Counted from the stretch's first letter, positions 4,467 to 27,975 are shown. The stretch is DNA of 39,135 bases from Chitinivibrionales bacterium (GCA_014728215.1 WJLZ01000100.1:1-39135); one strand, 5' to 3'. Numbers and translations: made by a program. The notes: generated by a model from the sequence alone, not told the origin.

Positions 4467-5303
4467 ATGGCTAAACTGAGTGCATTTGCAGATGAAGTAA
4501 CAAACGATTTAAAAGGACAGGTCGATTTTCTTGTTAAAGAGAAGGTTGAATACATTGAGATTCGCTTTCTTAACGGCAAAAATGTAATGGCCCTTTCCGA
4601 ATCGGAATTAAAAGAAGCCAAAAAGATGCTGGATGACAACGGCATAAAGGTAAGTGCAATCGGTTCACCAATTGGAAAAGTATCGCTTGATGAACCCTTT
4701 GAACCTCATCTTGAAAAATTCAAACATGCCATCGAGCTGGCGCAATTCTTTGAAACCCCCTTTGTCCGCATGTTCAGCTATTATGCTCCCGGTGATCTGA
4801 ACATTGATGATTTGCGGGACCGGGTTATGGACCGGATGGCGCAGAAAGTAGAGCTTCTTTCGGGTATCGATGTTATCATGGTCCACGAAAATGAAACGGG
4901 TATTTACGGTCACAGTGCGGAAAATTGTAAAGATATTGTAGAAACAATCGATTCTCCGAACCTTCGCCTGGTCTATGATTCGGCCAATTTTGTGTGGGGG
5001 CAAAAAATCACCGATAATATCACCCGGTGCTGGCCGCTTATGAAACCCTATATCGCCCATATCCATATCAAGGATTGGAAACTGGGATCGGAAAAACTTG
5101 GAAGCATGCCCGGCGAAGGCGATGGTCAGATAAAGGAGCTTCTGGCAGAGCTTGCGGCAATGGACTATTCAGGCTGCATGACCATGGAACCTCATCTCCA
5201 GGAGGGCGGACAGTTTGGTGGTCATACCGGACCGGAGCTTTTTTCTCAAGCAATTGCAGCGGTACGAAAAATGTCCGATGAAGTTGGATTGGAATGTAAA
5301 TAA
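4467..5303 (+). CDS. Sugar phosphate isomerase/epimerase-type TIM barrel (AP endonuclease 2 fold)
   Basis: This 278-aa protein belongs to the xylose isomerase-like TIM-barrel family (PF01261). The divalent-metal ligands are visible: E141 in MVHEN, D171 in VYDSAN, H200 in HIHIKD and E241 in TMEPH. The start has a clear ribosome site (aggag) nine bases upstream. It lies 92 bp after the enolase-family gene and 14 bp before the dehydrogenase gene, so it is very probably co-transcribed with the latter. Members isomerise or epimerise keto-sugars and inositol derivatives; the exact substrate is not readable from sequence. The combination with a Gfo/Idh/MocA oxidoreductase is a recurrent catabolic pairing for oxidised sugars and inositols. 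Confidence 0.87.
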   Translation: MAKLSAFADEVTNDLKGQVDFLVKEKVEYIEIRFLNGKNVMALSESELKEAKKMLDDNGIKVSAIGSPIGKVSLDEPFEPHLEKFKHAIELAQFFETPFVRMFSYYAPGDLNIDDLRDRVMDRMAQKVELLSGIDVIMVHENETGIYGHSAENCKDIVETIDSPNLRLVYDSANFVWGQKITDNITRCWPLMKPYIAHIHIKDWKLGSEKLGSMPGEGDGQIKELLAELAAMDYSGCMTMEPHLQEGGQFGGHTGPELFSQAIAAVRKMSDEVGLECK

Positions 5304-5317
5304 GAAACGGGGTTGTT

Positions 5318-6358
5318 ATGAAAACATATAATTTTGGAATAGTCGGCACTGGCTTGATTGCCGATTTTCACGCAAAGGCAATCGGCGATATTCCCAACGC
5401 AAAAATTGCAGGATGCTACGACGCCGTAGCTGATCGAACAAAACAGTTTGCAGAAAAACATTCCTGTAAAGGGTTTGATTCTCTTGACGATATGGCCCAC
5501 AGCGATGAGATTGATATTATTACGGTTGCCACTCCCAGCGGCGCCCATATGGAACCGGTCATTGCTGCCGCAGAGGGCGGTAAACACGCAATTTGTGAGA
5601 AACCGCTCGAGGTAACACTCGATCGTGTCGATGCTATGGTCGAGGCACATAAAAAGGCCGGGACTCTTTTGGGCGGCATCTTTCAGAACCGCTTTACCGA
5701 TGCACAGAAGCCTCTTCGGGATGCGATCCAGTCGGGGCGATTCGGCACGATTACCTATGCCGGTGTCTATGTTCCATGGTGGCGCAGTGATGAATACTAT
5801 ACAAACTCATGGCACGGTAGTTGGAAACTCGACGGCGGTGGTGCGCTGATGAATCAATCGTGTCACATGATCGATATGCTTTGTGACCTCATGCCGCCGG
5901 TCGAATCGGTGATGGCCTATGCCGACAATAGAGGACATCCGCAAATTGAAGCCGAAGATACGGCGGCCGCAGCGCTCCGTTTCAAAGGCGGCGCGCTGGG
6001 AATAATCTATGGTACCAGCGCATCATTCCCCGGACAGTTCAAACGGTTCGAGATCTCCGGCACCAAAGGGACGGTTGTCTACCTCGAAGACAGTTTTACG
6101 GTCTGGCAGTTCGCCGATGAACGGCCTGAAGACGCCACGATAAGAAAGCAGTTCGGCCAGGTTGACGGTCTCGGGAGTGTTGACGATCCCGCCGCAATCA
6201 AACACACCAATCACACGCGCAATTTCAGGGCATTCATCGATTCACTGGAATCGGGCAATGATTTCGTTCTTAACGGCCGTGAAGCCCGCAAAGCGGTACA
6301 ATTGATTCTGGCTATCTATGAGTCTGCAAAGGAACGAAAAGAGATTGTGCTTGCGTAA
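5318..6358 (+). CDS. Gfo/Idh/MocA-family NAD(P)-dependent sugar dehydrogenase
   Basis: The protein has 346 aa, normal for the family. It has a Rossmann N-terminus ([12 protein letters not shown], glycines at 7-12), the EKP signature at 94-96 (CEKPLEV) whose Lys takes part in catalysis, and the C-terminal-domain motif [14 protein letters not shown] with H183/D186. It oxidises or reduces a hydroxyl of a sugar or inositol with NAD(P). It starts 14 bp after the TIM-barrel gene and is followed 5 bp later by the macrodomain gene. A second family member lies on the opposite strand at 8141-9160. The two are clearly different in sequence, so this is not a recent duplication. Confidence 0.92.
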
Positions 6359-6363
6359 GTGTT

Positions 6364-6867
6364 ATGAAAGTCGTTCACTCCGATATCACCACCTTGCATG
6401 TCGATGCCATAGTCAACGCGGCAAACAAATCGCTTTTGGGCGGCGGGGGCGTTGACGGCGCGATTCATCGTGCGGCAGGGCCCGAACTCCTGGAAGAGTG
6501 CAAAACGCTGGGCGGCTGCAATACCGGTGAAGCCAAAATCACCAAAGGATATAACCTTCCCGCAAAATATGTAATTCATACGGTCGGTCCGGTGTGGAGA
6601 GGCGGGACCAAAGGCGAACCCGAATTGTTATATGGATGCTACCGCAATTCGCTGTCTCTCGCACAAAAACATGAATGCAAAAGCATCGCTTTTCCCTCTA
6701 TCAGTACCGGAGTTTATGGTTATCCTTCAGACGAAGCTGCAAAAATCGCCGTAAAGGCCTGCGGTGATTATGTCAATACTCACGATTATGTCTGCGAGAT
6801 TATCTTTTGCTGTTTCTCGCAAAATGATTATGAGATCTATATCGATTTACTGAAAAAACGCACTTAA
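6364..6867 (+). CDS. Macrodomain protein, O-acetyl-ADP-ribose deacetylase (YmdB-like)
   Basis: This 167-aa single-domain macrodomain has the ADP-ribose-binding hallmarks: IVNAAN (16-21), the [10 protein letters not shown] loop (26-35) and the phosphate-binding STGVYGYP loop near 112-119. Its size and motifs match the MacroD/YmdB class that hydrolyses O-acetyl-ADP-ribose and removes mono-ADP-ribose from acidic residues. It starts 5 bp after the dehydrogenase stop with only a weak ribosome site, suggesting translational coupling. Its 3' end overlaps the 3' end of the opposite-strand flavoprotein gene by four bases (TTAA serves both stops). Placement in a sugar operon is unusual; it could deal with NAD-derived by-products, but this is speculation. 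Confidence 0.92.
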
Positions 6868-11986: not shown

Positions 11987-13189
11987 TCATCCCAGAAGGC
12001 TTTTCAGTCCGAAAAAAAGTCCGAAAAGCGCCAAGCCCATACTGACCGGCACAGTGATCCGGCTATAATACCACTCTTTTTTCCAAAACCATACCGTTAA
12101 AGCTGCACCTGCACATAAAATCATTGCTATACCTCCGATACTTCCCAGCGAATAGGCGCCGGCAACCACCAGAGGACTATCGGTACCAAGCATGAACGGC
12201 GTGAGCAAGGTCGCCGAATAATAGCCGTGAAGGAACCCGAAGAGGGGCAGGAAAACGAGACGGGCATGGGAAAGTTTCCGGCTGAAAACGTTTTCGATAC
12301 CCACGGCGGCCGCAGAAAAGGCCACCAATGCTTCGGCATGATTGATTGAGATCGACAGGCCACCCCCTGTTACCAGGAAAAGAGCGAAAATATACGCTCC
12401 GGCAAAGAGTCCCACCTGACGGGCAACCATGCCTGCATTAACGGCGATAAACAGAAGTGCCAGAACAAAGAGCACATGCTCTTTCCCCGATGGAATAATA
12501 TTGAAAAATCCCAGATGAATAAATTTTGCAAAACGGGCTTGTGCCGCCACGGTGACCAATGAATCGAATGAAACATCATCCTTTGCCGATTTCATATCCG
12601 TTTGAATCACCGGCATTCCATTTTCGAGCTTCAGAAAGGTTCTGGAACCATCCTTTGCAAGGCGTAATGAAGCCCGCTCCTTTCCGGGAAGATGCAAAAA
12701 AACACCCACCAGAGGGAGCTGCTTGAGTTCGCGGATTGCCACGGGAGTGTTCGCTAATTCATAATCCGATGAAAGCGTATTGAGCTCTATACCCAGCCGC
12801 TGTGCATCGGTTGGTATGGGAAATTTTACTTTCACCGGGAAAACCGGAAACATCTCCCCAGCCTCCACCTCCTCGATTGTTTTGCCGAACTCAAAGGTAA
12901 TATAGGAAACCGGCTCACCATCAAGCGTGAAAAGAATACTTTTCTTAAGATATTCAAGGATCGTGGGCATCCGTGAAGCGATGACATCTCTTCTCAATGA
13001 GATATCATCGGGTAAAAGCCCCATACGATAGAGACTTACTTCAGCATCGATAATGAGTTTGGTCTCAACCGGAGTGGTATCGAAATACAAATGAATGGAA
13101 TTAACAACAACATCGTGGCCAAACCCGGGGATAGCCAGTAGAAAGAAAAGAAACAGAGAAGCGATTTTTTTTGTGATCGTTCGGTGCAC
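11987..13189 (-). CDS. HupE/UreJ_2-like membrane protein with large periplasmic N-domain
   Basis: The protein has 400 aa and starts at GTG (13189), preceded by aggatc. A signal peptide (about 1-24) is followed by a roughly 190-residue extracytoplasmic beta-rich domain. A C-terminal block of about six transmembrane helices starts near residue 225. That block carries HupE/UreJ-type motifs: HLGFFNIIPSGKEHVLFVLALL (His225, His238), a HAEALVAFSAAAVGIEN helix and LFGFLHGYYSA (His321). Conserved intramembrane histidines in this family are thought to handle Ni, Co or other metals. It is the last gene of the metal-uptake operon, 12 bp after the binding-protein gene. Which metal is carried, and whether this protein acts as a permease or as a partner of the ABC transporter, is unknown. 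Confidence 0.8.
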   Translation of the reverse strand: MHRTITKKIASLFLFFLLAIPGFGHDVVVNSIHLYFDTTPVETKLIIDAEVSLYRMGLLPDDISLRRDVIASRMPTILEYLKKSILFTLDGEPVSYITFEFGKTIEEVEAGEMFPVFPVKVKFPIPTDAQRLGIELNTLSSDYELANTPVAIRELKQLPLVGVFLHLPGKERASLRLAKDGSRTFLKLENGMPVIQTDMKSAKDDVSFDSLVTVAAQARFAKFIHLGFFNIIPSGKEHVLFVLALLFIAVNAGMVARQVGLFAGAYIFALFLVTGGGLSISINHAEALVAFSAAAVGIENVFSRKLSHARLVFLPLFGFLHGYYSATLLTPFMLGTDSPLVVAGAYSLGSIGGIAMILCAGAALTVWFWKKEWYYSRITVPVSMGLALFGLFFGLKSLLG

Positions 13190-13201
13190 CGGTACCAGAT
13201 C

Positions 13202-14119
13202 CTAGTTGAAAGCGTTACTGATATTCTCTATATTGCGATTCATGATTTTCATATAATCGAGTCCCTTCTCGCGTTCCTTGCGACCAAGTAATTCGCAAGG
13301 GCTGAAGAGGATACTTGTAAGGCCGCATTTTTCGGAAATATGTTTTTTAACATTCTCTTCCGGCGGGCCTTCCCAGACAAGGTAGCGGGCATGTGTCTTA
13401 GAGACAATGGTTGCAATGTCCTTTACATGTTCGTGTGAAGGCATCTTTTCAGGGTCGAGATCGAGATTGATTATGCTCCATTTATAACGGCGGGCAATGT
13501 AATTGTATGCAGGATGAGACATAAGCAAGGGGATTTCGTTTTTCCCTAAAGCTTTAAGTTTTTTATCGAGATTATCCAGGTCATCGATGAGGGAACGAAA
13601 CCGCCCGGCAAGAGTTTCTTTCTTTTCCGGAAGCAGCTCGATGAGCGCCTCCTGAATCCGCTCAGCCTGAACTTTCGCGTACACCGGATCCAGCCAGGTG
13701 TGTCCGTCAAGTCCTTCGTGGGCATGTTCGCCGCCGGGACCATGACTGTGCGTCACCGCTTTTTCATAGGTGATAAATTCATTTTTTAAAGGAGATGCGG
13801 TAACAACGACCTTTTCCCGGGGAAGCGTCACCATATCAACCCATTCTTCGAACCCCGCTCCATTGAGAACAATCAGATCGGCATTGTGGTATTTCCGGAT
13901 TATTTCCCTCGGAGGAAGCCAGAAAATGGGGTCTTCATTTTCAGGAACAGGGTTTACAACAGCAACATCATTTCCCCCGATCCTTTGGGTGAAATACTGT
14001 GTCGGATAAAAAGTTGTATATACAACCGGTTTTTCATTCTTTGGTCCTGCCTGCAGCGAAAACAGGATACCCGCCGAACCCGCAATGAGCATAAATCTCC
14101 AAATCTGCCGTACAAACAT
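13202..14119 (-). CDS. ZnuA-like metal-binding periplasmic protein (cluster A-I) with altered ligands
   Basis: The 305-aa protein starts after a strong aaaaggag site and has a signal sequence (about 1-24). The family features are clear: YTTFYPTQYFTQRIGG at the start, a His-rich loop at 123-140 (H124, H126, H132, H134), ligand H140 in GHTWLDP, ligand H202 in SHPAY and the C-terminal NIENI helix. The usual first ligand motif DPH is DPI (residues 63-65), and the late DP position reads SP (273-274). Two of the four typical coordination positions are therefore changed. It probably still binds a transition metal, perhaps with the His-rich loop helping, but specificity may differ from Zn or Mn. It lies between the FtsX-type permease and the HupE-like protein, with no ZnuB or ZnuC nearby. 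Confidence 0.87.
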   Translation of the reverse strand: MFVRQIWRFMLIAGSAGILFSLQAGPKNEKPVVYTTFYPTQYFTQRIGGNDVAVVNPVPENEDPIFWLPPREIIRKYHNADLIVLNGAGFEEWVDMVTLPREKVVVTASPLKNEFITYEKAVTHSHGPGGEHAHEGLDGHTWLDPVYAKVQAERIQEALIELLPEKKETLAGRFRSLIDDLDNLDKKLKALGKNEIPLLMSHPAYNYIARRYKWSIINLDLDPEKMPSHEHVKDIATIVSKTHARYLVWEGPPEENVKKHISEKCGLTSILFSPCELLGRKEREKGLDYMKIMNRNIENISNAFN

Positions 14120-14134
14120 TGTCTCCGACTCCTT

Positions 14135-15349
14135 TTAAAGAATTGTGATAACCAGAGGAATAACCCTGACAAGGGCGAGTGCCCCGATAAGGGCGATAAT
14201 TCCACCTGCCATGCATATAGCGAGAATTTCTCCCGCCACCAGCACACCAACCGTCCATCGGGAACAGCCGATCTTATGCAGCACCGAGAATTCTCTTTTC
14301 CGTAAACGATAGGAAAGCGTAAACACAAGAGCGGTCAAGCAGACCATTGACGCCAGCACAACCGCAAAATTGGCATCAAAAAATCGCTTGATTCTGAAAA
14401 CAAATCCCATAAGCTCTTCAATGACTATCTCCGGCACAAGTGCATCCCTGGTCTCATGGACCGTAAACCTTCCCCGGGCAATGGTATACATCTTCGCGCT
14501 TTCGGGAACCAGGATGCAGGAGGTTGCCGGAAAATGCTCTCGGTCACCATGGAAATGGAAGGTTTTACGATTGGCAGCGGTGATCTCCTGATATTGGATC
14601 ACCTTCGATGTGCCGACAACGTTTGTATCACTACTGCGCATTTTATCAACAATGGCGGGATCCTGTATCGCGGTCAGGTCCTCATGACCGTGGCCGATCC
14701 CCTCAATCACCCATGCTGTTTTCAGGTCCACAAAGACAGCCATGTCGTCGGGAGAATCGCATTTTTCGAGGATACCCACCACCGGCATTTTGAGCTGATA
14801 GGTCCGGGCCTGATCATACAAGGTTTTCGGATTCGAGACAAGATAATCTCCAATGCCGACGCCCGTTTTTTCCGCAAACTCCTTCCCTACGACAGCATCA
14901 CCCAGATAGAGAGGAAAAGAGCCCTCGTTGGCATCAATATCCCGGAATTCGAAATAGGACAATTCGGTTCCCACGATGGGGGCCGAAATGGCGGCTGTTA
15001 CCGGTGATGTTTCGTTCGCAAAAGGCCGGGCAGTAAAGCGTACATGAAGCGGAATCACCGTGCCCCACCCCTGATCTCTGATATAATCGATATCGGCCAT
15101 TGAAATTGACCGGTTATAATCGGTGGAGAAATAGAGCGATTTGAGAACCAGATCGTACCGGTCCCCCTTTGCGCCGATAATCAACGGCGTTTTCTGCGCC
15201 CGAATCATCAGTACCCGGTTGTAATGATTGACAAGAAAGGTGATTGCCACAGGCAGCAAAAAGAGTATCCCCAGAGAAAGAATCAGCACAAGAGTCTTTC
15301 CCCAGTGATACATCATATACCGTCCGGTAAGGTGAAAAAGTCCTCTCAT
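14135..15349 (-). CDS. FtsX/MacB-type ABC transporter permease of the metal operon
   Basis: This 404-aa protein has one N-terminal transmembrane helix (about 17-40), a large periplasmic domain (about 45-310) and three C-terminal helices separated by the LRKREFSVLHKIGCSR coupling segment. This is the topology of LolC/MacB/FtsX permeases, not of ZnuB. The start ATG overlaps the ATPase stop (ATGA). The periplasmic domain opens with TPLIIGAKGDRYDLVLKSL. It also has a His-containing stretch (GIGHGHED, and FHFHGDREH near the end), which could touch metal handed over by the binding protein. The pairing of a mechanotransmission-type ABC unit with a metal-binding protein recalls the Vibrio ZrgABCDE zinc system; this comparison is from memory and is an inference. 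Confidence 0.85.
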   Translation of the reverse strand: MRGLFHLTGRYMMYHWGKTLVLILSLGILFLLPVAITFLVNHYNRVLMIRAQKTPLIIGAKGDRYDLVLKSLYFSTDYNRSISMADIDYIRDQGWGTVIPLHVRFTARPFANETSPVTAAISAPIVGTELSYFEFRDIDANEGSFPLYLGDAVVGKEFAEKTGVGIGDYLVSNPKTLYDQARTYQLKMPVVGILEKCDSPDDMAVFVDLKTAWVIEGIGHGHEDLTAIQDPAIVDKMRSSDTNVVGTSKVIQYQEITAANRKTFHFHGDREHFPATSCILVPESAKMYTIARGRFTVHETRDALVPEIVIEELMGFVFRIKRFFDANFAVVLASMVCLTALVFTLSYRLRKREFSVLHKIGCSRWTVGVLVAGEILAICMAGGIIALIGALALVRVIPLVITIL

Positions 15350-16017
15350 GCCCTTTCTCCCTTTAGTAACGAAGTAAAATCAACAACCCTGTCGAACCTG
15401 TCTAAAAGGGAATGATCGTGCGTGACCATACAGAATGTACATCTCCTGTGTGTCACCTGGTCCTCCAAAAGCTCCATGATATGAAGCGCCGTGTTTGGAT
15501 CAAGGTTCCCGGTCGGCTCATCGGCTAAAATCAGTGATGGATTATTGATCAAGGCTCTGCACAATGCCACCCGTTGCCGCTCTCCCTGAGAGATGCGCTC
15601 CGGATATTTATCCAAAAGGGCCGCAACGCCCACAGACTCTGCAACGGAAACGACCCTGTCGCCGCTCTTTGCGGGTACGTTCGTTTGGTCGGAAACATAG
15701 AGCGGAAGAAGGATATTTTCATAACAGGTCAGATATTCCAGAAGTTCGAATTCCTGAAAAACAAAACCGATATTCGCAATGCGGAAATTCCGTTTCTCTT
15801 TGTCGGGTAAGGATGAAAACACTTGGTTATCACATCTGATTGTCCCCTTTTGCGGAGACAAAATACCGGCTATCAGGTACAGTAATGTTGTTTTGCCGCA
15901 CCCCGAAGGGCCCACGATTGCGGTTTTACTTCCCTGAGGAATAGTTATTTCGGGAACATGAATGCTGAAGCTGCCGGGTGAATAGGAAAAAGAGGCATCC
16001 TTTACCGTTATCATCAT
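15346..16017 (-). CDS. ABC transporter ATP-binding protein (LolD/MacB-type) of the metal operon
   Basis: The 223-aa nucleotide-binding domain has Walker A GPSGCGKT (36-43), Q-loop Q88 in FVFQEF, signature ISQGERQR (142-149), Walker B LILADEPTGNLD (162-173) and switch H200 (VTHDHS). The signature is a variant: the usual second residue pair SG of LSGGQ is SQ, leaving ISQGE. The ERQRVALCRAL continuation and DEPTGNLD are diagnostic of the LolD/MacB/FtsE subfamily rather than of ZnuC. It starts 2 bp after the upstream gene and overlaps the permease gene by 4 bp, so it is tightly coupled. It powers the permease at 14135-15349. Confidence 0.92.
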   Translation of the reverse strand: MMITVKDASFSYSPGSFSIHVPEITIPQGSKTAIVGPSGCGKTTLLYLIAGILSPQKGTIRCDNQVFSSLPDKEKRNFRIANIGFVFQEFELLEYLTCYENILLPLYVSDQTNVPAKSGDRVVSVAESVGVAALLDKYPERISQGERQRVALCRALINNPSLILADEPTGNLDPNTALHIMELLEDQVTHRRCTFCMVTHDHSLLDRFDRVVDFTSLLKGERA

Positions 16018-16019
16018 GG

Positions 16020-16649
16020 TTAATTAAATTCCCTCCGTCTGTGGAGCGTATCTCTGGTATTTTCCTGAAGAAAAATCTCCAGACTGTCGGTCATGGTATT
16101 TGTCCAATCCCTGTCGACCCGTTTCTGCGACAGGATCGTATTATCGACTATTTTCCATACCGCATCATTTAAAACCAGGGTATAGACCCCTTCGTACCGG
16201 TTTGTTCGTGGATGAAAATGGCCCCAATGTTTGAGAATACTGTTGACTTCCCAGGTACACCGGATCCCGAAGGAGGGCTTTGAGCTTTTTTTCGACCTCT
16301 CTGTTTCAATGAGTTCTGAAGAGAGAATATCGACCGAAAATATTTTTGTGAGCGCCCCCTGATGTTCTTCCCGAAGCACAAGGCCCTCATAGACTTCGGT
16401 ATACACCTTTGTCAGCAGCTCGCCGTCAATACTCTTACTCAAGGCATCGTAGATTTCACTCTCGGTCGAATAATCGAATGCGCTGTAGATGTTCCGGTGA
16501 AGGGCTTTGAATATGGCCCGGGCTTCGTGCGGTGAGGCCTTTATAAGCGATGACCGCTTCAGCTCAAGCCGGCTGTCGACATAAAACAGGAGCGGGAGCC
16601 CAAGAGCGAGTACCAGGAAAAGGATTATTGCTTTATGAACAGTAGCCAT
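16020..16649 (-). CDS. Membrane-anchored periplasmic protein, first gene of metal operon, unknown family
   Basis: The 209-aa protein has one N-terminal hydrophobic anchor (about 6-24) and a mixed alpha/beta soluble domain. Near residues 130-175 it contains a Trp/His-rich segment (TWEVNSILKHWGHFHPRTN) followed by DAVWKIVDN, resembling an NTF2-like fold with a His cluster H140/H143/H145. I recall comparable W-GH-H-R-N segments in proteins encoded beside HupE-like and metal ABC genes, which would suit metal handling, but no named family is certain. It is separated by 2 bp from the ATPase gene. The ribosome site before the ATG is weak. A strong inverted repeat lies about 50 bp upstream and may control the operon. 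Confidence 0.62.
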   Translation of the reverse strand: MATVHKAIILFLVLALGLPLLFYVDSRLELKRSSLIKASPHEARAIFKALHRNIYSAFDYSTESEIYDALSKSIDGELLTKVYTEVYEGLVLREEHQGALTKIFSVDILSSELIETERSKKSSKPSFGIRCTWEVNSILKHWGHFHPRTNRYEGVYTLVLNDAVWKIVDNTILSQKRVDRDWTNTMTDSLEIFLQENTRDTLHRRREFN

Positions 16650-16698: not shown

Positions 16699-16732
16699 CC
16701 GTTCAAAATTGATTGAAGTTAATTTTGAACGG
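16699..16732. promoter_or_regulatory. 12-bp perfect inverted repeat between divergent genes (operator candidate)
   Basis: CCGTTCAAAATT (16699-16710) and AATTTTGAACGG (16721-16732) are perfect reverse complements around a 10-base spacer. The site lies in the roughly 300-bp gap between the metal operon (minus) and the thioredoxin-fold gene (plus), 50 bp from the operon start. The centre-to-centre distance of half-sites is about two helical turns, as for a dimeric regulator. As RNA it would also form a hairpin, with no T-run. It does not match the Zur or Fur boxes I know. The rest of the gap is AT-rich, with nothing else recognisable apart from a tactcc-type repeat fragment at 16685-16700. Confidence 0.5.
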
Positions 16733-18876: not shown

Positions 18877-20103
18877 ATGGCAAAACAGAAAAAATATAAA
18901 ATTCCGGATCCGAAAGCCTTTTTCTGTAGGGAAGACGAGCAGGTTTATGGTCTAAGAAGCGAAGGTGATCTGCCCAAGCAAAAGCCGACCTTTAAACTGA
19001 TTGACTTGTTTTGCGGGGCGGGCGGCATGACCTTGGGCTTCACAGAAGCTTTGGGGCACCATTTTAAGCCGATTTGGGCAAATGACTTCAACAAGTATTG
19101 TGTAGATACATATAACGCAAATTTCGGGAACCACTGCCATGCCGGAGATATTGTAGATATTTTAGAAGATAAAACCGTAACAATCCCCAAGGCAGATGTT
19201 GTAATTGGAGGCCCTCCATGCCAAGGTTTCAGCCTCTTAAATCGGAACCGGGATAATGATCTCCGGCGGCAATTATGGCGGCCATATTTAGAAGTTGTTG
19301 AAAGAAGCGATGCGAAAGTCTTTGTGATAGAAAATGTTCCGCAATTGCTCGGAACTTTCGAACATGGCGAGATTGTCGGTATCGCGGAAAAACTTGGTTT
19401 CAAAGTTGATTCCGGCAAGATTTGTGCTGCGGATTATGGGGTTCCACAAACACGAATAAGGGCAATAATAATTGGCTCACGAGTTGGAGACCCATCATTT
19501 CTATTTCCTCCTCGCAGGACGCATTATAATCCTAATGGTAATGGCCACTATCAGAGCAAATTAGACTTTTCAGGAGGTACAGATTTCCTTCCGTCGCCGG
19601 CAAAATGGCAAACTGTCCGGGACGCTATATCCGATTTACCTCCTCCCACCGGGACAGACATCCGTGATGTTGCTCCGCCATTAGACCTTCATTTCGGCAG
19701 AACACCCACGCCGATGAGCATGAAAAGATATCGTTCAATTCCTAAGGAAGGTATGAATAGATTCGACCTTCAAAAACGAGCACCTGAATTAACTCCACAA
19801 TGCTGGATTCGAAAAAAATCGGGTGGGACCGACTTGTTCGGCAGATTATGGTGGAACAGGCCGGCTTTTACTATGAGGACTGAATTTTACAAACCGGAAA
19901 AGGGCCGATACTTACATCCGGAACAGCATAGACCGATAACGCATAGAGAAGCGGCACGATTTCAATCTTTTCCAGATCCTTTCGTTTTTATGGGAACCAA
20001 GATAGAGATTGCAAAGCAAATCGGCAATGCTGTCCCCCCCCTTATGGCAGCACGTATTGCCGATATTGTTTATGTTTTGCTTGCAAAAGGCTCAAAGGCT
20101 TAG
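18877..20103 (+). CDS. DNA (cytosine-5-)-methyltransferase
   Basis: This 408-aa C5-methyltransferase has all core motifs: I, DLFCGAGGMTLGF (43-55), binding S-adenosylmethionine; IV, GGPPCQGFS (111-119), with catalytic C115; VI, IENVP (151-155); VIII, QTRIRAIIIG (191-200); IX, REAARFQSFPD (357-367); and X, QIGNAVPP (381-388). The target-recognition region is about 205-345, and the recognised sequence cannot be read from it. An additional N-terminal segment of about 38 residues precedes motif I. No restriction endonuclease gene is adjacent. Instead a degenerate vsr follows after 6 bp, the arrangement typical of Dcm-like enzymes. It could be an orphan regulatory or protective methyltransferase, or the remnant of a restriction-modification system. 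Confidence 0.95.
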   Translation: MAKQKKYKIPDPKAFFCREDEQVYGLRSEGDLPKQKPTFKLIDLFCGAGGMTLGFTEALGHHFKPIWANDFNKYCVDTYNANFGNHCHAGDIVDILEDKTVTIPKADVVIGGPPCQGFSLLNRNRDNDLRRQLWRPYLEVVERSDAKVFVIENVPQLLGTFEHGEIVGIAEKLGFKVDSGKICAADYGVPQTRIRAIIIGSRVGDPSFLFPPRRTHYNPNGNGHYQSKLDFSGGTDFLPSPAKWQTVRDAISDLPPPTGTDIRDVAPPLDLHFGRTPTPMSMKRYRSIPKEGMNRFDLQKRAPELTPQCWIRKKSGGTDLFGRLWWNRPAFTMRTEFYKPEKGRYLHPEQHRPITHREAARFQSFPDPFVFMGTKIEIAKQIGNAVPPLMAARIADIVYVLLAKGSKA

Positions 20104-22602: not shown

Positions 22603-22896
22603 ATGGCACACTATAAGGATTATTCATACGAGCAAACGAAGATGGTGGCGATATCATATGATCGGCAGGTTCTTCCCGGGACATTCGAGCATACGCTGAG
22701 TGATGTAATTGATTCCCTGGACATGTCTGTATTCGATGATCGGTACCGGAACGATGAAACCGGAGGGCCGGCATATGATCCAGGGATACTGTTAAAAATT
22801 ATTCTTTTTGCGTATTCCAAAGGGATTATTTATTCCCGCCGAATAGCACAGCTCTGCAATGAAAATGTTGCTTATTTACAAAACAAATATCTATGA
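22603..22896 (+). pseudogene. IS1182-family transposase, N-terminal fragment
   Basis: From the ATG at 22603 (ribosome site aaggtgg) the 97-residue frame reads MAHYKDYSYEQTKMVAISYD and continues through the DUF772-type domain. Recognisable pieces are LPGTFEHTL, FDDRYRNDETGGPAYDPGIL, LLKIILFAYSKGI and SRRIAQLCNENV. After ENV, where full-length transposases continue into the catalytic core, it switches to AYLQNKYL and stops. The catalytic DDE domain is absent, so the element cannot move by itself. The break coincides with the 3' end of the convergent radical SAM gene (6-bp overlap), suggesting a deletion joined the two. Confidence 0.85.
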
Positions 22897-24300
22897 AGGT
22901 TTCCGTATATCTTCAAGAAATTGAATATACTCTTCATAAATCGTGATATACTGCTTTACCAGAAAGGTCCCGCCCGCCTTGACCATCAGACTGAAAAAGC
23001 CATACCGCAAAACCCGCTGAAAATCCCAGACAAGGGCATCGAGAACAACATTGGCCAATTGCTTCAACCCCTCCATCATTACCCGTGGAAGGGAATAGAA
23101 TTTCCTGTATGCAATAAGCACTTCCTTCTGAAGAACGGAGGCACTCATCGACTTTGGCTGAAACACCAGGTACATACCATTGAAAAATTCCCATCGGGTA
23201 TGGTAGAGGCGGTTCTCGTTTTCAATTTTTTCATACACCTGCGTACCGGGGAATGGGGTCAGGATCATGAATTGCACGGTGTCGATATGATGGTGAATGG
23301 CAAAATCGACTGTTTCGTGAATCGTGGCGGGCGTATCGTTGTCTTCACCAAACATGAACATACCATGGATGCTTATTCCTTTTTTATGAATAATGTCGAT
23401 TGCCTTTTCGATATCACTTTTTGTCTGCGATTTATGCAGTGCCTTCAAGGTCGCATCGTTGATCGATTCGAATCCGATAAAAAAGAATCGGCATCCGGTC
23501 CGTTCCATCCTGCCGATCAGCTCGGGACTTTTGGAAATATCCGAGCGTACCTGGGCAGTCCAGGAAATGTCGAGTTTTTCCTGCTCGATCAGATCGCAGA
23601 GGCGTTCGACACGCTTCTTGTTTGCCGAAAAATTATCATCATAGAAAAAAATATCCCGCGTTTTAAAGAACTTCAGGGCATGCTTGATTTCCTCGACGAT
23701 CCGCTCCGCCGACTGCATCCGGAATTTCTTGCCGAAAATCTTGGTGACCGTGCAGAAATTACAATCAAAGGGACAGCCCCGTGAGGTCATGATCGGAATG
23801 ATGCTCATCGTTTCCACCCCCTCCAAAAGGGAATACTCGATAAGCGGGAGGTTTTCGATGTTTTCGATCGCCTTCCCCTGAATGATTGTCTCCTCATAGG
23901 CCCCTTCAATAATATCGACAATATTTGCTTCTGCTTCTCCCTGGATTACATGGTCCGCACAGTCCACAAACTCCCGGGGAAGCAATGATGCATGAATGCC
24001 TCCGATAAGGATTTTGGCGTGGGGATATACTTTTCTGATCTGGTTGGCGAGATGCTTGGCCCTGTTTGCGCTGACAGTCAAGGCGGAGATACAGTATACA
24101 TCGGCCTGGATCGCAAAGGGATCGATTTTTTGCGACAAAATGTTTTCATTATATATTCTGACCGGATATCCGGCATTATGCAGAATGGTACCCAGATACA
24201 GGCACCCGGTCAGGGGAAGACGCATATAATTTTCAAAGACATTCGCTTCGCTTCCGGCCGGCTCGATAAAAACAACAGATTTCTTTGTACGCGGATTCAT
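22891..24300 (-). CDS. B12-fold radical SAM protein
   Basis: The 469-aa protein has an N-terminal cobalamin-binding-like Rossmann domain (about 8-135: IPLTGCLYLGTILHNAGY-type opening, ILIGGIHASLLP, VIQGEAE). It is followed by a radical SAM domain with the [4Fe-4S] motif C176-PFD-C180-NF-C183 (TSRGCPFDCNFCTV). The B12 histidine motif DxHxxG is not present (YNENIL at that place), so if cobalamin binds it is base-off without the His ligand, as in many members of this group. The C-terminal about 130 residues are family-specific. The family methylates or rearranges diverse substrates (lipids, bacteriochlorophylls, phosphonates); the substrate here is unknown. The ATG overlaps the stop of the upstream membrane-protein gene (ATGA). 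Confidence 0.9.
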   Translation of the reverse strand: MNPRTKKSVVFIEPAGSEANVFENYMRLPLTGCLYLGTILHNAGYPVRIYNENILSQKIDPFAIQADVYCISALTVSANRAKHLANQIRKVYPHAKILIGGIHASLLPREFVDCADHVIQGEAEANIVDIIEGAYEETIIQGKAIENIENLPLIEYSLLEGVETMSIIPIMTSRGCPFDCNFCTVTKIFGKKFRMQSAERIVEEIKHALKFFKTRDIFFYDDNFSANKKRVERLCDLIEQEKLDISWTAQVRSDISKSPELIGRMERTGCRFFFIGFESINDATLKALHKSQTKSDIEKAIDIIHKKGISIHGMFMFGEDNDTPATIHETVDFAIHHHIDTVQFMILTPFPGTQVYEKIENENRLYHTRWEFFNGMYLVFQPKSMSASVLQKEVLIAYRKFYSLPRVMMEGLKQLANVVLDALVWDFQRVLRYGFFSLMVKAGGTFLVKQYITIYEEYIQFLEDIRKPS

Positions 24301-26022: not shown

Positions 26023-26712
26023 ATGATGGCTTTCTTGGAATTGCAGGAAATCAGGAAGTCCTTTCACAAAGGGGAACGGGAAGTTCATGCCCTCCGGGGA
26101 GTTGATCTGTCGATCAACCGGGGCGATTTCTGCGCGATTGTCGGTCCCTCGGGCAGCGGTAAAACCACCCTGCTCAATATTGTAGGCTGCCTCGATACGC
26201 CGACATCGGGAACCATGGAATACGACCACCGCCCTTTGGGCGCCCTCACCGACAAGGAGCTGTCTTGGTACCGAAGGGACAATATCGGATTCATATTCCA
26301 GTCTTACAATCTCATTCCGGTGCTGACAGTGAAGGAGAATGTCGAACTCCCCATGGTGATCGAAAAGAAGTTGAGCAAGGCCGCAATGGCCCGCAAGGCC
26401 CGTGAAATCATCGATGCTGTCGGGCTGGCTTCCATGGCACATCGTCTCCCCCGCGAGATTTCGGGCGGCCAGGAGCAGCGAGTGGCTATTGCCCGGGCCC
26501 TGGTCAAAGATCCGCTGGTGGTGCTTGCCGATGAACCTACCGCTAATCTCGACACCGTAACAGCCGAAGAAATTATCGCCCTCATGCAGAAAATCAACCG
26601 GGAACGCCAAACAACCTTCGTCTTCTCCACCCACGATCTCAGGATGCAAAAACATGCGCAAAGGGAAGTCGTTCTCAAAGACGGCCTCATTACCTCGGAT
26701 GAAAGGAGATAG
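26023..26712 (+). CDS. LolD/MacB-type ABC transporter ATP-binding protein
   Basis: The 229-aa nucleotide-binding domain has Walker A GPSGSGKT (41-48), Q-loop in FIFQSYNLIP, signature ISGGQEQR (146-153), Walker B VVLADEPTANLD (166-177) and switch H204 (STHD). The QSYNLIPxLTVxENVELP segment and EQRVAIARAL are typical of the LolD/MacB/SalX exporters. Its codons 1 and 2 are both ATG; aggag fits either. It lies 14 bp after the regulator and 3 bp before the first permease. A single ATPase serving two different permeases matches a LolCDE-like heterodimeric arrangement. Confidence 0.93.
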   Translation: MMAFLELQEIRKSFHKGEREVHALRGVDLSINRGDFCAIVGPSGSGKTTLLNIVGCLDTPTSGTMEYDHRPLGALTDKELSWYRRDNIGFIFQSYNLIPVLTVKENVELPMVIEKKLSKAAMARKAREIIDAVGLASMAHRLPREISGGQEQRVAIARALVKDPLVVLADEPTANLDTVTAEEIIALMQKINRERQTTFVFSTHDLRMQKHAQREVVLKDGLITSDERR

Positions 26713-26715
26713 GGC

Positions 26716-27975
26716 ATGAAATCGCTCCTTATTATCGCATTCCGCAATCTTCTCCGCCACAAACGACGGACAATCCTGACCGGTATTATCATCTCTTTCG
26801 GGTTATGGATGTATATCTTCATGGATTCCCTCATGGCCGGACTCGACCGGGGATCGATCGACAACATGATCACCCTCTCGACTTCGGCGGTAAAGATACA
26901 TACCCAAAAGTATGACAAAAACAGAGAATCTTTTCCTCTCGAATACGGTATTCAAGTCGGAGATCAGATCAAACAGGCTATTCAGGACCACGACAGAGTC
27001 GAGGCAATTACTCCCCGCACACAATTCCTGGGAGAACTCTCAAACTACGAAGAATCGATCCCGGTGGCGGGAACGGTGATTGCCCCTCACAGCGACACCG
27101 CCGTGTTTTCGCTGAATCCGTACCTTGAAGGTGAGTATTTCTCGGAAAACAACCAACAGGAGATCATACTTGGAAAGACCCTTGCCGGGGACCTGAATGT
27201 CAAACCCGGTGATTTCATTACCCTCTACGGACTCACGAAATACGATACCCGTAACGCCGATGATTTCAAAATAGTCGGCCTTTACAACACGACCGATCCG
27301 GAACTGAATAAAAACGCCGTCTTTATCACCTACGACGCCGCAAATACCTTCTTAGACCTCGAAAACACGGTCACCGAACTGAATGTCGGGCTTAAACGGC
27401 GGGTCAACTTCAAGAATCTTCTGACCGACATGAAAGAAGTCCGGCAGATTGTGGAGACCGAATTTCCCTCACTGACCACCTATACCTTTGCCGAACTGGG
27501 CGCGGGGGTGCTGGAACTTGCCCGTCAGAAACGGCTGTGGGGGGCGGGAATGACGCTGGTTTTCCTGCTGATCGCCGGAGTAGGTATTGTCAACTCGGTC
27601 CTCATGAGCGTGTATGAGCGCATTCGCGAGATCGGCGTATTGCGCGCCCTTGGATTTGAAGGTGATCGGGTTATGCATATGTTTATGCTCGAAGGCGTTA
27701 TTATTGGCTTTATCGGCAGCCTCGCCGGGGTGATACTGGGATGTATTACCGTAGTATATCTGTCAACCTGGGGTTGGCCCCTGGATAAACTGTATGGTGA
27801 CATGGCCGTCGATACCACCGGCTTCCCTGTCTGGGGCACAATCTACGGGGAATGGAATGTCCCGCTTATTATCGGCTCATTTTTCTTTGGCCTGGTCACT
27901 GCGCTTATAGCGAGCATTCCCCCGGCCGGAAAAGCGGCATCCATGGAAGTCACCCATGCCTTGAGGTTTGTGTAA
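26716..27975 (+). CDS. FtsX/LolC-like ABC permease 1
   Basis: The 419-aa protein has TM1 at about 18-40, a large periplasmic MacB_PCD-like domain (about 45-265) and three C-terminal helices (about 275-298, 325-350, 383-405). Between the second and third helices is the coupling motif YERIREIGVLRALGF, highly conserved in FtsX-family permeases. A roughly 30-residue periplasmic loop rich in Gly and Trp (WGWPLDKLYGD) precedes the last helix. The ribosome site aaaggag is ideal, and the gene begins 3 bp after the ATPase. It likely forms a heterodimer with the permease encoded at 28087. The substrate is unknown; lipoproteins or lipids are suggested by the downstream LolA-like gene. Confidence 0.9.
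   Translation: MKSLLIIAFRNLLRHKRRTILTGIIISFGLWMYIFMDSLMAGLDRGSIDNMITLSTSAVKIHTQKYDKNRESFPLEYGIQVGDQIKQAIQDHDRVEAITPRTQFLGELSNYEESIPVAGTVIAPHSDTAVFSLNPYLEGEYFSENNQQEIILGKTLAGDLNVKPGDFITLYGLTKYDTRNADDFKIVGLYNTTDPELNKNAVFITYDAANTFLDLENTVTELNVGLKRRVNFKNLLTDMKEVRQIVETEFPSLTTYTFAELGAGVLELARQKRLWGAGMTLVFLLIAGVGIVNSVLMSVYERIREIGVLRALGFEGDRVMHMFMLEGVIIGFIGSLAGVILGCITVVYLSTWGWPLDKLYGDMAVDTTGFPVWGTIYGEWNVPLIIGSFFFGLVTALIASIPPAGKAASMEVTHALRFV

Follow-up and report, generated by a model that had tools for sequence, protein, structure and literature searches.

We describe a five-gene operon on the minus strand of a 39,135-nucleotide stretch of DNA from a Chitinivibrionales bacterium (GCA_014728215.1, WJLZ01000100.1:1-39135; the whole stretch is hereafter the window, with positions counted from its first nucleotide). 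On balance, we favor the view that its products form a metal-handling machine of the periplasm, driven by ATP and belonging to the MacB/FtsX, or type VII, class of ATP-binding cassette (ABC) systems as a distant sister of ZrgBC. The machine probably serves to capture a scarce metal, for which nickel and zinc are the likeliest candidates. The operon joins a membrane-anchored periplasmic protein (P0001), an ATPase (P0002), a permease (P0003), a ZnuA-like binding protein (P0004) and a HupE-like protein (P0005). The system is real, conserved and apparently undescribed, a variant among the Zrg-related ABC metal systems of type VII; no description of it was found in the open literature, subscription papers being outside the scope of the search.

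The gene block and its permease family

The five genes are adjacent and run from 16649 to 11987, with each gap at most 15 bp (2 bp, a 4-bp overlap, 15 bp and 12 bp in the order P0001 to P0005), in agreement with the five tightly spaced genes described in an earlier, model-made reading of the window (the sequence-only reading). The Pfam matches agreed with its FtsX-fold permease (P0003, FtsX 32.7 bits and MacB_PCD 29.4 bits), ZnuA-type binding protein (P0004, PF01297, 161.5 bits) and HupE-like protein (P0005, HupE_UreJ_2, PF13795, 43.2 bits with a cut-off of 24.5). P0002 matched ABC_tran with 114 bits, and the Pfam scan of P0001 gave zero family matches.

A first plasmid search with the permease returned relatives from Methylomagnum and Paracoccus with identical gene order. 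From a profile scan covering one genome per species, we have kept 80 of at least 120 confirmed loci, on which the counts below rest. These permease loci belong to at least eight phyla, the carriers being Methylococcales, Rhodobacterales, Planctomycetota, Verrucomicrobiota, Gemmatimonadota, Myxococcota, Riflebacteria, Rokuibacteriota, Thermoanaerobaculales and others. The ATPase gene adjoins the permease gene in 72/74 testable loci, a ZnuA-like gene is close to it in 63/73 and a P0001-like gene in 56/71. The block P0001-P0004 recurs together across many phyla, which is more than chance. In the neighborhood search proposed in the sequence-only reading (FtsX-type permease, ZnuA and HupE), the ZnuA linkage was recurrent and HupE mostly absent. 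Within the window's phylum the permease was found in 1/168 genomes, the window genome alone, and this patchiness suggests horizontal transfer. In a genus-mate the HupE gene and the genes downstream of it are kept, and the contig breaks off within HupE.

The AlphaFold model of P0003 (predicted local distance difference test score, 92.2) contains three long helices in all (residues 16-53, 306-349 and 364-403). Its best Foldseek match was MacB (5gko, E 7e-12) and it grouped with MacB, LolCDE and HrtB, so that model and fold search both backed the mechanotransmission-type fold first proposed for the ABC pair. The Pfam FtsX match of P0003 ends at position 73/120, and about 53 residues follow E353 in the window's permease family vs 95-100 in ZrgB and a Thermus relative. 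On these three counts P0003 lacks the fourth transmembrane (TM) helix of its superfamily, with three instead of four, and because this helix is absent P0003 is unlikely to be a channel itself. The histidines H220, H222, H265 and H267 are invariant in 78/78 permeases; the scan patterns [PA]DD[QMD]AVFV and DL[TV]L[NKA][AS]LYF inflate conservation inside those stretches, not at the His motifs.

Two other permeases are of note here. The window holds a second, ordinary ABC pair at 26023-27975, an ATPase plus a full-length FtsX/MacB permease (26716-27975), which provides a four-helix comparison and whose FtsX match reaches 119/120. The Thermus relative, encoded on a plasmid (L007, 257 bits), keeps TM4, has no His motifs and may represent an intermediate without ZnuA.

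The motifs of P0002 are intact (Walker A GPSGCGKT at residue 36, the SQGERQR signature, LILADE and TH). It scored 176.7 bits with FtsE and 171.9 bits with LolD, both under the curated cut-offs; for the initial description of a LolD-like ATPase this is a correction, the FtsE score being slightly higher.

We have compared the permease profile with known relatives. It gave 118-138 bits with 14 ZrgB proteins and about 25 bits or less with FtsX, YbbP, LolE, MacB and LolC of Escherichia coli (23 bits or less for the last four). By sequence, ZrgB is the closest characterized permease relative, the window family forming a separate group in a tree with long branches. This kinship and the ZnuA-like linkage upheld the metal link of the ABC pair, and a placement in an unrelated antibiotic-export group lacking metal linkage, which the sequence-only reading had named as the result that would count against it, does not hold. 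An ordinary antibiotic or lipoprotein exporter lying beside metal genes by chance is scarcely credible: the best ATPase matches are indeed FtsE, LolD and bacteriocin exporters, but the linkage is kept over phyla, the recurrent ZnuA-like neighbor contradicts it, the Lol, MacB and YbbP proteins score poorly with the permease profile, and the His motifs are invariant. With MacB, LolCDE and FtsEX the operon has in common the fold and a nucleotide-binding domain of the same class, separate or fused; it differs in the three TM helices of its permease and in its putative metal-binding partners.

The resemblance to ZrgABCDE lies in a permease and a separate ATPase homologous to P0003 and P0002, and in a ZrgA-fold periplasmic domain that occurs in relatives of the window operon. 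The window family differs by its ZnuA-like protein and by a permease without TM4. Only one His column (H222) of the GHGH/FHFHG motifs is common with ZrgB, in which the FHFHG stretch is absent. Seed searches of the loci with ZrgA (PF10986), extended to the window, and with ZrgE (DUF3299) gave zero matches. The claim that the binding protein differs from that of Zrg was hence only partly right: the loci have no ZrgA sequence, but its fold turns up again in relatives, on the anchored protein. For comparison we have used 18 ZrgA loci from Gammaproteobacteria, read with their flanks. Locus L134 has, at about 4648-6811 on the minus strand, a ZrgA gene beside zur-like and canonical ZnuA genes, and a ZrgB or ZrgC match was not found in its 10-kb stretch.

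Periplasmic proteins and the HupE-like protein

The loop histidines H124, H126, H132 and H134 of P0004 are 98-100% conserved in 65 ZnuA-like proteins. We take H60, H143 and H207 to be ligands of E. coli ZnuA, H60 being the first canonical one. At the H60 position His is found in 0/65 proteins (Ile in the window); the H143 position holds His in 15/65, window included, and is replaced in 50/65, and the His of the H207 position is kept in 56/65. The ZnuA-like proteins of the operons grouped in one clade that excludes five canonical ZnuA proteins, with a support of 100/99 in a tree with long branches. P0004 is therefore like ZnuABC in its family membership and unlike it in its clade and in the missing H60 ligand; the operon also differs in having no ZnuB, PF00950 being matched only on another contig (C54), beside a ZnuC-like ATPase.

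The same genome encodes a canonical ZnuA on contig C215. Because this protein suits the ZnuBC pair of C54, P0004 need not serve that pair. The alternative that a ZnuBC pair elsewhere is the true partner, which had been set against the original proposal, does not hold: the C215 ZnuA could serve the C54 pair, and the P0004 clade is separate and travels with the FtsX unit. Canonical ZnuA (C215, L004) and ZnuBC (C54, L111) lie on different contigs, ZnuA near a TonB-receptor-like gene.

P0001 has an N-terminal membrane anchor and a conserved HxxHxH motif, with H141 in 57/57, H144 in 56/57 and H146 in 57/57 family members. With 8 His in 209 residues it is not the His-rich protein of the sequence-only reading. 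Some relatives are long, with an extra N-terminal domain. The model of one of these (L062) matched ARC6/Tim44-type NTF2-like folds in Foldseek and, each with E 3e-4, ZrgA (8ezw) as well as a HupE protein's Ang-1 domain (9gce). From this relative, the C-terminal domain of the P0001 family models as NTF2-like. The ZrgA/Ang fold would correspond to the N-terminal half of L062, by our own reading from the order of the folds. A HupE/Ang profile also matched the N-terminal region of the long forms L033 (E 1.1e-6), L038 (9e-6) and L067, and, by a rough pattern of which some cases are perhaps chance, 14/40 long forms start with a His after a signal-like segment. At the sequence level, hhalign showed no relationship between the P0001 family and ZrgA or ZrgE.

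P0005 consists of HupE_UreJ_2 preceded by an Ang-like periplasmic N-terminal domain, for which His25 is the predicted N-terminus of the mature protein. Judging from relatives, the Ang-like domain is probably fold-related to Ang-1/ZrgA; P0005 gave zero matches with PDB sequences. A domain of this N-terminal-His (Ang/ZrgA-fold) type is found on the anchored protein in many relatives and on HupE in the window. Each version of the system appears to supply N-terminal-His metal binders in its own way, and these may be functionally equivalent. The two-domain architecture and predicted N-terminal His of P0005 are those of the Ang-1-HupE/UreJ-2 proteins (PMC12537917), from which P0005 differs in lacking two conserved His and one Asp in its membrane domain and in lying inside an ABC operon. 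In P0005 the replacements are H230 to N, H266 to Y and D237 to E, while H238 and H321 are kept; H230, H266 and D237 are absent from the genus-mate HupE as well and invariant in 16 other HupE rows.

These residues bear on the proposal that the FtsX unit strips metal from binding proteins and HupE moves it into the cytoplasm, which we consider quite unlikely and which, as a special case of our preferred explanation, overlaps with it. P0005 does lie in the operon, 12 bp past the ZnuA-like gene, the genus-mate keeps HupE beside the same downstream genes, and HupE-like genes occur near two further loci (L083 and L056). However, this HupE is confined to the window and the genus-mate, most loci have none, and the three residues are lost in both proteins. 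The suggestion that HupE is the actual permease is thus weakly supported: it is possible in the window operon and cannot be the general mechanism. At L083 (5432-6595, Phycisphaeraceae), a separate Ang-HupE-like protein with a very divergent membrane domain is encoded directly upstream of the P0001-like gene.

Candidate metal and proposed mechanism

DUF4198 (191 bits) and NikL-type genes (57.8 bits, under the curated cut-off of 100) were found in about 16 loci, in Rhodobacterales. They occur in 14/16 loci with short P0001 forms vs 1/43 with long forms (p 1e-10); the short forms belong mostly to one lineage, so few independent events stand behind these counts. NikR adjoins two loci, the odds of this by chance being about 2.5e-4. 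DUF4198 binds Ni with a Kd of 18 nM and Ang-1 binds Cu/Ni (PMC12537917), and orphan NikK/NikL have been reported in genomes without NikMQO (PMC2667541). Rhodobacterales relatives resemble NikKMLQO in carrying DUF4198 and NikL-type genes within the operon; unlike that system, the window operon has none of NikM, NikQ and NikO, and NikK and NikL are also absent from it. Urease was present in 10/10 such Rhodobacterales genomes checked, 7/10 of them without CbiM/NikM; since urease is common in Rhodobacterales, this is weak evidence for nickel. The NikK/NikL-type genes and the NikR links favor nickel. Nickel or cobalt would be the metal with a likelihood a little short of even, zinc is a clearly weaker candidate, and other metals take the remainder.

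A zinc uptake system, that is, a variant of Zrg with a ZnuA-like protein as substitute for ZrgA, is rather unlikely as an explanation. ZrgB is the nearest characterized permease, ZrgABC aids growth of Vibrio cholerae under zinc limitation (PMC9820375), ZrgA does likewise in Vibrio parahaemolyticus (PMC9817125), the ZnuA family is mostly a Zn/Mn one, and the neighborhood of one locus (L042) includes zur and znu genes. Gene linkage points elsewhere, with zur near 1/82 loci vs 9/18 ZrgA loci (p 2e-7) and COG0523 near 1. Moreover, ZrgA and ZrgE were not found in the loci, the first canonical Zn ligand is gone in all 65 ZnuA-like proteins, and the DUF4198, NikL and NikR links favor Ni.

For PA4063-PA4066, the counterpart of Zrg in Pseudomonas aeruginosa, pyochelin-cobalt export has been proposed; an export role of this kind, for a metallophore or for excess metal, seems improbable here. 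It would fit the MacB fold of P0003 and the mutant data on that related operon (PMC11481552). Against it, a MacA or TolC-type partner was not among the recurrent neighbors (no search was aimed at them), the permease has no TM4, and the periplasmic metal-binding proteins belong to uptake-type families.

In the metal-handling machine that we favor, three periplasmic components would bind a scarce divalent metal: the anchored NTF2-like protein, the ZnuA-like protein and the Ang domain with its N-terminal His. P0002, by binding and hydrolyzing ATP, would set the periplasmic domains of a P0003 dimer in motion, the four invariant histidines of P0003 would accept or strip the metal, and either a transporter or an extracytoplasmic client would then receive it.

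Several observations weigh against this machine or against nickel as its substrate. Most loci have no linked membrane transporter to take the metal, and the export role of the related P. aeruginosa operon has been proposed from its mutants (PMC11481552). NikR occurs in only 6/34 system-bearing genomes, and we have rejected it as a general regulator. The window genome has a separate CbiM (on C72 only) and a distant NikR, so nickel need not be the metal of the window operon. CopC at seven Methylococcales loci hints at copper, and Zrg, being Zur-regulated and zinc-linked, argues for zinc by homology. Sequence and models establish the gene block, the family relationships, the conserved residues and a predicted fold, and from these we infer metal handling, its uptake direction, the mechanotransmission and the metal.

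Surroundings of the operon and meaning of the family

Table 1. Genes of the operon in the window
Protein	Position	Strand	Description
P0001	16020..16649	-	Membrane-anchored periplasmic protein; conserved W133, H141, H144, H146, R148, Y152
P0002	15346..16017	-	ATPase subunit; ABC_tran, intact motifs
P0003	14135..15349	-	Predicted MacB/FtsX-fold permease, three TM helices; invariant periplasmic H220, H222, H265, H267
P0004	13202..14119	-	ZnuA-like binding protein, distinct clade; HxH...HxH loop H124, H126, H132, H134
P0005	11987..13189	-	N-terminal periplasmic Ang-like domain plus divergent HupE_UreJ_2 membrane domain

Upstream of the operon, at 16701-16730, lies a perfect palindrome, GTTCAAAATT-N10-AATTTTGAAC. 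We have rejected it as an operator, the same element being present at four other sites of the genome (C211, C31, C167 and C219) with 1-3 mismatches. Because it recurs elsewhere, with two copies about 5 bp past stop codons and none preceding a recognized metal gene, it is probably a dispersed hairpin element. As for riboswitches, the window gave zero Rfam matches of any kind, and 19 relatives gave one Rfam match only, a tRNA. Upstream of the operon in seven Methylococcales loci (L005, L010 and L013-L017) are genes for BNR/sialidase-like, CopC-like and unknown proteins, and in five of these loci a similar TonB receptor is encoded about 8 kb or less away. Elsewhere in the window are a C-5 cytosine DNA methylase (18877-20103) and a B12-binding radical SAM protein (22891-24300).

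What MacB-like ABC proteins such as Zrg do for metal nutrition is under dispute, the proposals being zinc uptake in Vibrio and cobalt-pyochelin export in Pseudomonas. A widespread family whose candidate metal ligands are sharply conserved and whose permease lacks a TM helix would allow a direct test of uptake without a channel. It also offers a candidate partner for orphan NikK/NikL proteins. As a tentative extension that we consider possible, though unlikely, the family may acquire nickel (or nickel/cobalt) by machines of a new class: the FtsX-type ABC unit, with its three helices, would use ATP not for transport but for stripping the metal from N-terminal-His domains and a ZnuA-derived protein. 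Some of the orphan NikK/NikL proteins would then be explained as well.

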